Positions 16,809 through 50,119 of a stretch of 53,702 nucleotides of DNA are shown here, in pieces (position 1 is the stretch's first letter; every line of letters begins with the position of its first letter). The DNA lies in the NCBI RefSeq assembly GCF_000524475.1, contig NZ_BAVQ01000061.1:1-53702 (forward strand), given 5' to 3'. The position numbers were made by a program, and so were the translations under genes. The stretch is from Tomitella biformata AHU 1821 (GTDB lineage Bacteria > Actinomycetota > Actinomycetes > Mycobacteriales > Mycobacteriaceae). The notes below the pieces were generated by a model. It did not search any database. It was not told the DNA's origin and worked only from the letters and a program-made list of their open reading frames with translations.

Positions 16809-16821
16809 ATAACTAAGTTAG
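16809..16821. promoter_or_regulatory. Operator-like palindrome in the DoxX/SDR divergent promoter
   Basis: TAACTAAGTTA (16810-16820) is an odd palindrome, AAC-TAA-GTT, in the 155-base gap between divergent starts at 16738 and 16894. It resembles the other AAC-N-GTT sites in the window and the mycobacterial KstR pattern TnnAACnnGTTnnA, but has three central bases instead of two. Confidence 0.55.
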
Positions 16822-16893
16822 AGACAAGCATTGGTCCGCGGGCCTCCCCGCGACCGCCCCTCCGCACCCGCGGCACAGCGAAAGGCATCCCAA

Positions 16894-17658
16894 ATGGACC
16901 TCACCCACGCGTCCGCCGCCGTCACCGGCGGCGCCTCCGGCCTCGGCCGCGCCACCGCAGAGGCCTTCGTGGCCCGCGGCGTCCCCACCGTGATCATCGA
17001 CCTGCCCTCCTCCGACGGCGAGGCCGTCGCGCGCGAGCTCGGCGAGCTGGTCACCTTCATGCCCGCCGACGTCCGCGATCCGGCGGCCGTGGACGCCGCA
17101 CTGGCCGCGGCGGAGGACAAGGCCCCCCTGCGCGCCGTCGTGCACTGCGCGGGCCGGGGCGGCAAGGTGCGGATCGTTGAGAAGGACGGGACCCCAGGCA
17201 GTTTGGAGCTCTATCAGGAGGTCGTCAGCACCAACCTCGTCGGCACCTTCAACGTCCTGCGCCTCGCGGCCGCGCGGATGGTCAAGAACGACACCGTCGA
17301 CGGCGAGCGCGGCGTGGTCATCATGACCGCTTCCGTGGCGGCCTTCGAGGGGCAGATCGGCCAGGCCGCGTACTCCTCGTCCAAGGCCGGCGTCGCGGGG
17401 CTGACCATCGTGGCGGCGCGGGACCTGGCCCGCAAGTTCGTCCGCGTCGTGACCATCGCCCCCGGCACCTTCGAGACGCCCATCCTCGGCGGGCTGTCCG
17501 AGAAGGTGCGGGACTCCCTCGCCGCGCAGGTCCCCCACCCCTCGCGGCTGGGGGCGCCGGCCGAGTACGCCAAGCTCGCGCTCGCCATCGTCGACAACGC
17601 CATGATCAATGGCGAGACCATCCGCATCGACGGCGCCATCCGCATGGGCCCGGTCTAA
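16894..17658 (+). CDS. SDR, 3-hydroxyacyl-CoA dehydrogenase type II-like
   Basis: 254 residues from ATG 16894 (AAAGG at 16881-16885). VTGGASGLGRA, VVHCAGRGGKV, TASVAAFEGQIGQ and YSSSK are nearly the same as in the SDRs at 6981 and 44148, so the three are recent paralogues. It should oxidise a 3-hydroxyacyl-CoA to the 3-keto form with NAD+. It is a single-gene plus-strand unit, divergent from the DoxX operon and convergent with the ferredoxin-reductase gene. The longer open frame back to 16831 lacks a ribosome site. Confidence 0.88.
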   Translation: MDLTHASAAVTGGASGLGRATAEAFVARGVPTVIIDLPSSDGEAVARELGELVTFMPADVRDPAAVDAALAAAEDKAPLRAVVHCAGRGGKVRIVEKDGTPGSLELYQEVVSTNLVGTFNVLRLAAARMVKNDTVDGERGVVIMTASVAAFEGQIGQAAYSSSKAGVAGLTIVAARDLARKFVRVVTIAPGTFETPILGGLSEKVRDSLAAQVPHPSRLGAPAEYAKLALAIVDNAMINGETIRIDGAIRMGPV

Positions 17659-17665
17659 GGCCTGG

Positions 17666-17696
17666 CCCGCTCGCCGCTCTGGCCGCGGCGGGCGGG
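17666..17696. terminator. Terminator hairpin between convergent genes
   Basis: An 11-bp stem with one G-T wobble (CCCGCTCGCCG at 17666-17676 against 17686-17696) and a nine-base loop, filling the 40-base gap between the convergent SDR and ferredoxin-reductase genes. No T tract is present. Confidence 0.55.
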
Positions 17697-17698
17697 GC

Positions 17699-48210: not shown

Positions 48211-48250
48211 CTCGCCACCTCCCCTTTTTCTTGATCGAATTCGTTGGCGG

Positions 48251-49021
48251 TCAGTCTTGGGGCGCGCGCCGCTTGCCGAACCGGGCACCGACCTCCGAGC
48301 CGCTGGTGCGGAAGCCCACCGAGGCCTCGGCCTCCAGCCCCAGCGCGTGCGCCGTGGTGGCCCCCGCTCCGTCTTTGAGCAGGCGCAGCATCCGCTGGAT
48401 GGCGCCCGGATGCCCGGCCGCGATCTTGTCCGCGATCGCCATGGTGCGGACCATGAGCTCGCCGTGCTCGACCACCTCGTTCGCAAGGCCGATGCGCGCG
48501 GCCTCCGCGCCGTCGATCGGCTCGCCGCTGAGCATGAACTGCACCGCGGCGGGCAGGCCCACCATGCGGGGCAGCAGCGCGCTGCCGCCCCAACCGTTGA
48601 GCAGGCCGATCTGGGCGTGGGTGTCGGCGAACTCTGCGCGGGCCGAGGCGATGATGAACGAGCAGCTCACCACCAGCTCATAGCCGCCGGTGTAGCAGGG
48701 GCCGTTGACGGCCGCGATCACCGGTTTCGAGATCGACCGCAGCACCTGCGTGGGGGTGGCGCCCTCCGTGCGCGGCGACGGGCCCGAGAGCGCCTCGGGC
48801 AGATCGACCCCCGCCGAGAACGACGTGCCCGCACCGGTGATGACGACGACGCGCACGCCCTCGTCGGCGTCCGCCCGCCACAGCTCCCGCTTGAGTGATT
48901 TGCGCATCGCTCGGTTGATCGCGTTCCGGCGGTCCGGCCGGTTCAGCGTCAGGACCGTGACGGGGCCGACCTTCTCGACCAGGACGGGGGTCTCCGCCAC
49001 CGCGGGAGCTTGCTCGGTCAT
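48251..49021 (-). CDS. Enoyl-CoA hydratase/isomerase family protein
   Basis: 256 residues from ATG 49021; a TTG at 49030 would overlap the upstream stop. The oxyanion loop is SFSAGVDLPEAL. The first catalytic glutamate is kept (TGGYELVVSC), but the second site reads DTHAQIGLLNGWGGS without a glutamate. Such one-glutamate members are often isomerases or act on bulky ring substrates. It lies between the nitronate-monooxygenase-like gene (5-base gap) and the fused ACAD in a compact operon. Confidence 0.87.
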   Translation of the reverse strand: MTEQAPAVAETPVLVEKVGPVTVLTLNRPDRRNAINRAMRKSLKRELWRADADEGVRVVVITGAGTSFSAGVDLPEALSGPSPRTEGATPTQVLRSISKPVIAAVNGPCYTGGYELVVSCSFIIASARAEFADTHAQIGLLNGWGGSALLPRMVGLPAAVQFMLSGEPIDGAEAARIGLANEVVEHGELMVRTMAIADKIAAGHPGAIQRMLRLLKDGAGATTAHALGLEAEASVGFRTSGSEVGARFGKRRAPQD

Positions 49022-49026
49022 CGCGC

Positions 49027-50016
49027 TCAACCGACCGTGATCGGGTCGACGACGACGTTGCGCGCGAGGTGCCCGAGCAACGCCTCCGCGTCGGCGGAGA
49101 TGCGGCGCACCAGGTCGCCTGCCGGCGGAATGTCGTGGATCAGGCCCTGCACCACGCCGACGGTCCAGATGCCCGCCTCCGGGTCGCCGAACTCATAAAC
49201 CGTGCGCCCGCGGGTGCCCACGACGAGGTCCTTCACATCGCGGAACCGCCCACCGGCGTTGAGGATCTCGACGACCTCCTCGCTGACCGAGTTCCGCGCG
49301 GCCCGCATCGTGTTGCGGAGCTGGCGGAAGATCAGCTGGGTGTCCAGCTCGGAGGCGTCGACAATCTGCTGCTTGATGTTCTCGTGGATCGGGCTTTCCT
49401 GAGTGCACATGAAGCGCGTGCCCATGTTGATGCCGTCGGCCCCCAGCGCGAGCGCCGCCACGAGGCCACGGCCGTCCGCGAAGCCGCCGGACGCGACGAA
49501 CGGGATCTTCAGCGCGTCCGCCGCCGCGGGGATCAGCACGAGGCCGGGGATGTCGTCCTCACCCGGGTGCCCCGCGCACTCGAAGCCGTCGATGCTCACC
49601 GCGTCGACACCGATCCGCTCCGCCTTGAGGGCGTGCCGGACGCTGGTGCACTTGTGGATGACCTTGATGCCGTGCTGCTTGAAGTGCTCGACGTGCTCGG
49701 TCGGATCTGAACCGGCGGTCTCGACGATCGTGACACCGGAGTCGATGATTACCTGCCGGAGCTCCGGGTACGGCGGCGGGTTGACTGACAATGTGAGCGT
49801 CAAGTTGACGCCGAAGGGCTTGTCGGTCATCTCCCGGCACCGCGCGATCTCCTCCGCCAGCGCCTGTGGGGTCGGCTGCGTGAGCGCGGTGATGATGCCC
49901 AGGCCCCCGGCCTCGGACACCGCGGCGGCGAGCTCCGCGCGGCCGACCCACATCATCCCGCCCTGCACGATCGGGTGCTCGACGCCGAACGCCTCGGTGA
50001 ACCGTGTCTTCAACAT
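49027..50016 (-). CDS. FMN-dependent nitronate monooxygenase-like oxidoreductase
   Basis: 329 residues from ATG 50016 (AAGGAG six bases upstream). The TIM-barrel FMN family is clear: [34 protein letters not shown] with the active histidine, and [13 protein letters not shown] for phosphate binding. Real nitronate substrates are rare; in steroid clusters a related enzyme (IpdC) reduces ring-derived acyl-CoA. Being first in an operon with a crotonase and a fused ACAD, this one likely acts on an enoyl- or ketoacyl-CoA here. That function is inference. Confidence 0.86.
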
Positions 50017-50092
50017 CGCTGCTCCTTGGCGTGCGCCGGGTGTCCGGGGATCATTGCCACGGTGATCTACCCCACCGTCCACTTACACTAAG

Positions 50093-50119
50093 CTAACATA
50101 GTTCACTATGTGAGTTAAC
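50093..50119. promoter_or_regulatory. Best-formed palindromic operator in the window
   Basis: ACATAGT-TC-ACTATGT (50096-50111) is a perfect seven-base inverted repeat with a two-base spacer, flanked by CTA and GAGTTAAC. TAGTTCACTA also fits the GntR/FadR-type pattern TnGTnnACnA. It lies 80 bases before the minus-strand start at 50016 and about 215 before the GntR start at 50325. Bases 50120-50324 hold nothing else that I can name. Confidence 0.7.

Follow-up and report, generated by a model that had tools for sequence, protein, structure and literature searches.

Operators of the FadR subfamily of GntR regulators are described as palindromes in which GT and AC lie 3 or 2 nt apart, with boxes of the form TKGT/ACMA (PMC4494728). 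The operator of Escherichia coli NanR, whose ligand is sialic acid, is (GGTATA)3, in which all repeats are direct (PMC8012715). The subject of this analysis is a 20-bp palindrome that recurs on contig NZ_BAVQ01000061.1 of Tomitella biformata AHU 1821. The window, that is, the whole stretch analysed, is this entire 53,702-bp contig (C53; 69% G+C), one of the 112 contigs of a 4.7-Mb genome. Very probably, the palindrome is the operator of a GntR-family protein with an FCD effector domain encoded at 50325-51125, which is predicted to bind it and thereby to repress a catabolic regulon. The kind of control is already known (PMC4494728); what is new is the example, the regulon of an uncharacterised FCD-GntR, which is real and well supported. 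Neither the regulator nor the operator is named in the title or abstract start of any paper among the literature listed.

As in the FadR-subfamily operators covered by PMC4494728, the palindrome is A/T-rich, has GT and AC 2-3 nt apart, and occurs between divergent genes and before the regulator's own gene. It differs from them in a third half-site, which lies 9 bp away at 28 of the 49 strong sites. With NanR, the GntR protein shares a relationship in sequence (profile match 6on4, E 2e-15) and an operator with repeated half-sites. NanR as described in PMC8012715 uses three direct repeats, however, whereas at most two direct and one inverted half-site are found here, arranged around a palindrome. 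The predicted fold agrees with those of GntR regulators, including E. coli FadR, a GntR protein responsive to acyl-CoA: among the 50 matches listed, the acyl-CoA-binding FadR structure 1hw1 has the best target-normalised TM-score (0.74, against 0.64 normalised to the query; E-value rank 20), and the targets are of the beta-oxidation type in both cases. The two proteins are nevertheless only 18% identical, and Pfam assigns the FCD domain to the one studied here.

The Palindrome and Its Copies

The sites in the window are copies of a single 20-bp palindrome, TNAC-NTAG-TNNA-CTAN-GTNA, with TNAC/GTNA arms, a TAGT-NN-ACTA core and its axis in GTTAAC. Four copies are strong (16801-16820, 33713-33732, 38574-38593 and 50094-50113), and weaker ones lie at 42081-42100 and 44070-44098. 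A sequence-only reading of the window had listed seven places as carrying a repeated motif, and the named sequences are indeed present at all seven. The core proposed there, (A)AC-ATA/TAA-GTT-(A/C)A, is out of register, because the symmetry is centred on GTTAAC and not on AAC-ATA-GTT, an offset of 4-5 bp. AAC-NNN-GTT was also tried as the symmetry unit and rejected: of the five places in the window where AACNNNGTT occurs, just two are reported sites, and the GTTAAC-centred 20-mer explains more.

The claim of an identical sequence at two distant promoters holds, with ACATAGTTAACCA at 33718-33730 on the minus strand and at 38576-38588 on the plus strand; with up to two mismatches it has four matches in the window, against 0.09 expected. 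CATAGTT and ACATAGT occur five times each, always at the places listed. The supposedly perfect inverted repeat at 50096-50111 consists of 7-bp arms that match perfectly and a 2-nt centre between them (ACATAGT-TC-ACTATGT), and is thus not a fully perfect 16-bp palindrome. At 38557, the half-site is repeated (CATAGTTAA), but no palindrome of its own is centred there among the 25 best matches to the relatives' matrix. This matrix was built from 27 sites in relatives, selected by a pattern that was itself partly shaped by the window sites; its seven best window matches (50094, 38574, 33713, 16801, 44079, 42081 and 38565, the last overlapping 38574) cover six of the seven places, and six window matches score at least 16, against a mean of 0.06 and a maximum of 1 for 1000 column-permuted matrices. 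Scored by consensus, the 20-mer reaches at least 12/18 at eight window positions (0.35 expected) and at least 14/18 at four, against none in 20 first-order Markov sequences. The sites, their associated elements and the proposed binder are as follows.

16801..16820: operator (predicted), TTACCTCGATAACTAAGTTA, between a DoxX/tyrosine-phosphatase pair (-) and a short-chain dehydrogenase/reductase (SDR) gene (+); matrix and consensus, with a site also at the sole ortholog tested, L128 (1/1)
33713..33732: operator (predicted), TGACGTGGTTAACTATGTCA, flanked by genes for an enoyl-CoA hydratase (-) and an acyl-CoA dehydrogenase (+); orthologs of the dehydrogenase have an upstream site in 5/6
33705..33733, minus strand: promoter-like TTGACA-17-TACCTT around the 33713 operator; box search
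38574..38593: operator (predicted), TTACATAGTTAACCAGGTCA, at the head of a CoA-ligase/thiolase/hydratase operon (ligase 36945-38534, -); site upstream of the orthologous ligase in 6/8; alignment of seven regions
38565..38573, plus strand: third half-site, AAAGATAGA, scoring 7.4, at 9 bp from the palindrome; overlaps the minus-strand -10 box
38566..38594, minus strand: promoter-like TTGACC-17-TATCTT containing the 38574 operator; box search
42081..42100: weaker operator (predicted), CAACCTAGTAACAGATGTAA, at the head of an operon (-) for a FAS1-dehydratase-region (MaoC-like) protein, a hydratase and a dehydrogenase; site upstream of the orthologous gene in 6/6
42101-42072: promoter-like TTTACA-18-TACTAT overlapping the 42081 operator; box search
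44070..44098, plus strand: three half-sites, TCACATAGT-TTAGATAGT-ACTATAAGTGA, between a hypothetical open reading frame (ORF)/CoA ligase (-) and SDR/thioesterase (+); arranged alike in L027 and L040; orthologs of the SDR have an upstream site in 12/13
50094..50113: strongest operator (predicted), TAACATAGTTCACTATGTGA, between a nitronate-monooxygenase (NMO)-like gene (-) and gntR (+); sites at 10/11 NMO and 18/35 GntR starts; alignment of five regions
50276..50295: weak second site, TTACTGGGTGCTCATAGTCA, near the gntR start; self-trained matrix 13.7, relatives' matrix 5.1; position kept in the alignment of five regions
50325..51125, plus strand: regulator of the GntR family, 266 aa, with an FCD effector domain, proposed to bind the palindrome; Pfam and co-occurrence with the motif

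The genome-wide scan that the sequence-only reading proposed was carried out by pattern matching and places the full palindrome above chance level. The ideal 20-mer TNACATAGTTAACTATGTNA, with up to three mismatches, is found at three places in the genome, all on the window contig, and its reversed control at none. With up to one mismatch, TNACNNNGTTAACNNNGTNA occurs at five places, four of them on the window contig (control 1), and TNACNTAGTNNACTANGTNA at four, three on the window contig and one at C32:44280 (control 0).

Two observations concern sites elsewhere in the genome. The match at C32:44280 (genome G000; L126:6281), TAACCTAGCTCACTAAGTGA, is a good operator match (score 27) before a Dpp-like ABC permease pair. 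It may be a far target: sites are present at 0/6 near-full-length permease orthologs (67-70% identity), but two distant permeases (36% identity) that lie inside the clusters of G175 do have sites. The 4,038-bp contig C59 (L127, G000:C59:1-4038) has an exact 74-bp terminal inverted repeat, each copy of which contains a GntR-like site (at 25 and 3995); between the copies lie genes for a GntR protein of 33% identity, a 3-hydroxyisobutyrate-dehydrogenase-like protein and an SDR-like protein.

Conservation in Relatives

With the GntR protein as query, 33 loci were collected from Rhodococcus, Nocardia, Williamsia and Mycobacterium/Mycolicibacterium. A looser, self-trained matrix has matches in all 33 loci and in the window, 152 matches in total with about 5 expected to be false; three loci (L051-L053) have no match in the strict scan and show sites in the self-trained scan only. 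Gene order is rearranged among the clusters of the other genera, yet the same genes keep the upstream site. A matrix built on the four strong sites of the window (score at least 12, distinct upstream regions) found sites at 61 of 83 starts of target genes, meaning genes that carry a site in the window, against 12 of 94 other starts; a usable upstream region was available for 26 of the 42 window query proteins, and the homologous promoters behind these counts are not independent even after near-identical ones were collapsed. The target genes with a site are SDR2 (1/1), MaoC-like (6/6), ligase-2 (3/3), SDR4 (12/13), NMO (10/11), dehydrogenase-3 (5/6), ligase-1 (6/8) and GntR (18/35). The other 18 genes contribute thioesterase (5/6), ECH3 (3/8), SDR1 (1/2), ltp (1/4), thiolase1 (1/10) and thiolase2 (1/10), and the remaining non-target genes have no upstream site, among them CaiB1 (0/11), ACAD2 (0/10), APH (0/8) and TetR (0/3).

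In aligned upstream regions, seven for ligase-1 and five for NMO/gntR, the operator is kept and the flanks diverge. On two annotated Rhodococcus plasmid stretches, taken from two of three plasmid records and unused in training, all 11 matrix matches of at least 12 avoid the listed genes and have a start within 400 bp, although just 14-19% of these stretches is outside listed genes, the gene table being incomplete. The suggestion that the sites mark the heads of the operons of one regulon is strongly supported. Four genomes of the same genus were sampled (G013, G041, G060 and G077, the last 81% complete), and neither the motif nor a GntR ortholog was found in them; the cluster is therefore accessory.

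The Regulator

On the longer ORF 50271-51125, Pfam recognises an N-terminal winged helix-turn-helix domain (PF00392, 4.5e-18) and an FCD domain (PF07729, 1.4e-14), and in the predicted structure (mean pLDDT 83.5 overall) the C-terminal domain is helical. Among 24 aligned GntR orthologs, conservation is higher in the winged-helix region than in the effector domain, as expected if the operator is conserved. The metal-dependent subtype of the FCD domain has Asp/His metal ligands; in this alignment, His169 and His244 are invariant, and the residue four before His169 is never Asp.

Two binders had been put forward for the palindrome, this GntR protein and a TetR protein encoded at 13668-14324. Across 201 genomes of the family, the motif (at most one mismatch) occurs in 14, a GntR ortholog in 20 and a TetR ortholog in 4, with ortholog cut-offs (at least 57% identity for both) chosen after a gap in the identities was visible; all GntR matches at E ≤ 1e-30 together cover 13 of the 14 motif genomes, but also 60 of the 201 genomes. 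Twelve of the 14 motif genomes have a GntR ortholog (Fisher p 1.6e-12), and without the four TetR-ortholog genomes the figure is 9 of 11 (p 5.7e-10). In G084, G122, G134, G165 and G184, the motif lies approximately 130-210 bp upstream of the GntR match. By co-occurrence alone, the GntR protein is the likely owner of the operator.

That the TetR protein binds the palindrome is, in contrast, very unlikely. Its gene shares the contig, and three of the four TetR-ortholog genomes have the motif (Fisher p 0.001), but 11 of the 14 motif genomes lack an ortholog, five have a match even when every hit at E ≤ 1e-20 is counted, and a site is present at 0/3 TetR starts and at 0/8 starts of the adjacent phosphotransferase gene. 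We give equally little weight to the view that another co-inherited regulator is the true binder, such as the second GntR paralog (35-43% identical) in the clusters of some relatives. Second FCD-GntR-like genes do occur in the clusters of L035, L040, L042, L045, L046, G175 and G151; among the Pfam-scanned ORFs of the window, however, there is one TetR and one GntR only (small intergenic gaps were not all scanned), and at E ≤ 1e-30 the sole other GntR match in the same genome, on contig C59, is 33% identical.

Several results speak against the GntR protein encoded at 50325-51125 as the repressor acting through this palindrome. Eight of the 20 GntR-ortholog genomes have no motif within one mismatch, two of the 14 motif genomes (G029 and G035) have no GntR ortholog, and a site of at least 12 within 350 bp is present at just 18/35 gntR starts. 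The half-site TNACNTAGT has TAGT/ACTA, whereas the FadR-subfamily boxes published in PMC4494728 are TKGT/ACMA. Over the palindrome at 50094, the strongest site, the rule used finds no promoter-like box. Finally, the 13-mer ACATAGTTAACCA with up to two mismatches has 21 genome matches against 12 for its reversed control and is not specific; specificity is held by the full 20-mer only, not by the short form.

Promoter Overlap and a Possible Mechanism

Promoter-like boxes overlap the operators at 37 of 89 nonredundant sites, against 14.1 ± 3.3 (maximum 25) in 200 trials with shuffled flanks; at 16801 and 44079, the boxes reach 8/12 matches. Such frequent overlap is, like the sites, their conservation and their co-inheritance with GntR, a computed result. 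The earlier statement that neither promoters nor coding constraint explain the repeats therefore needs softening in its promoter part, many sites overlapping promoter-like boxes. It is nevertheless very improbable that the shared sequence is simply a conserved promoter element (-35/-10) and not a regulator site. The sigma-70-like boxes overlap the sites above chance, and TTGACC-17-TATCTT is part of the conserved block at the ligase promoter, but a promoter does not need a 20-bp two-fold symmetry, 52 of the 89 sites have no such box, and the motif is nearly confined to the window contig and tracks one regulator gene across genomes.

Since many operators overlap -35/-10 boxes, repression is likely, and the simplest reading is a GntR repressor that occludes RNA polymerase. 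We infer that the protein binds and that it represses rather than activates. A GntR dimer would sit on the 20-bp palindrome, with its GT-NN-AC core and TNAC/GTNA arms, at no fewer than six promoters: those of SDR/DoxX, hydratase/acyl-CoA dehydrogenase, the CoA-ligase operon, the MaoC-like operon, CoA-ligase/SDR-thioesterase and NMO/gntR itself. By covering the stretch from -35 to -10, it would keep RNA polymerase out until a pathway intermediate, perhaps an acyl-CoA, releases it, and this release would induce the beta-oxidation-like catabolic regulon in a coordinated and autoregulated manner.

At the 28 of 49 strong nonredundant sites mentioned above, the distance between the palindrome and the third half-site is exactly 9 bp; no other offset between -30 and -8 accounts for more than 3/49. 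The arrays consist of two direct half-sites and one inverted one. Examples are TTACATAGA-TAACATAGT-TCACTATGTAC in L028 and TCACATAGT-TTAGATAGT-ACTATAAGTTA in L027, of which the second corresponds to 44070-44098 of the window. Among the third half-sites of the window, the one at 50085 is weak (score 1.7), and the 16801 operator lacks one (-0.6). Those at 38565 and 33704 fall on a -10 box, so that at these ligase and dehydrogenase promoters the element may serve both roles or the promoter alone. Tentatively, the functional operator could be a set of three half-sites phased at 9 bp (TNACATAGN-TNACATAGT-NNACTATGTNA), two of them direct and the other inverted, with two or more GntR dimers binding cooperatively over -35/-10. 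Such a mixture of direct and inverted elements would stand between the palindromes of the FadR type and the tandem repeats of the NanR type and would travel with an exchangeable catabolic cluster.

The P450 Module and the Extent of the Regulon

The sequence-only reading had called the regulon island-wide, which goes too far: the relatives' matrix gives no match of at least 12 in the first part of the window (1-16 kb) or in the module at 17.7-32.8 kb, which encodes P450s, ferredoxins, aldehyde dehydrogenases and a ferredoxin reductase. The self-trained matrix has five weak matches in this module (12.2-21.2), the best at 24592 beside AACTAGTT, and these may be weak or variant GntR sites. Exact AACTAGTT palindromes lie at 24604-24611, 26182-26189 and 31531-31538, in or near upstream regions of the module, against 0.01 expected. 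They probably represent a second operator or a variant of the GntR operator. TNNAACTAGTTNNA occurs twice in the genome, both times in the window (control 1), and once each in two of 12 related genomes.

KstR is a TetR regulator of actinobacterial steroid catabolism that acts through an A/T-rich palindrome. Two of the AACTAGTT copies fit the KstR-type motif TNNAACNNGTTNNA exactly and share TTAGATGGT downstream. The exact matches to this motif are at 24601 and 26179, and those with one mismatch at 9320 and 31528; it is not at the GntR sites, and a search of the window with the KstR and KstR2 motifs placed neither there.

The distance from SDR2 to dehydrogenase-3 is approximately 5 kb in the otherwise syntenic G184 contig, against approximately 16 kb in the window, and a counterpart of the module of such length was not seen in that contig. 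The module is likely an insertion in the window or a loss elsewhere. With its weak GntR matches, its own AACTAGTT palindromes and this difference in spacing, the island looks composite, probably with a second regulatory system.

Near the module boundary, at 33650-33700, there is a sequence that resembles the 3' half of a tRNA (GGAGTTCGAATCTCC...GCGCCCACC). It was not called by ARAGORN or Rfam and has no second genome copy within two mismatches, and the window as a whole has no tRNA gene and no Rfam family at gathering score. It is possibly the remnant of an integration site.

Regulated Genes and Significance

The genes under the sites encode CoA ligases, acyl-CoA dehydrogenases, enoyl-CoA hydratases, a thiolase, a MaoC-like dehydratase, SDRs, a thioesterase and an NMO-like flavoprotein. 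The contig also encodes a KstD-like dehydrogenase and an HsaC/BphC-like dioxygenase, both below the NCBIfam curated cut-offs, which hint at a steroid- or terpenoid-like substrate; since they lie outside the conserved regulated core, no substrate is assigned. The effector and the substrate are likewise what we infer, an acyl-CoA being a plausible effector.

The regulon is probably that of a lipid- or steroid-like breakdown cluster in Rhodococcus-Nocardia relatives, in which at least six promoters would be shut off. An unassigned acyl-CoA-type catabolic cluster common to Rhodococcus, Nocardia and Williamsia, the GntR gene of which is also found in some Mycobacterium, thereby gains a proposed regulator and operator along with at least six promoters, and its inducer, hence its natural substrate, is now open to a reporter screen. 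The phased third half-site provides a testable case of how FCD-GntR proteins may shift between palindromic and tandem recognition.

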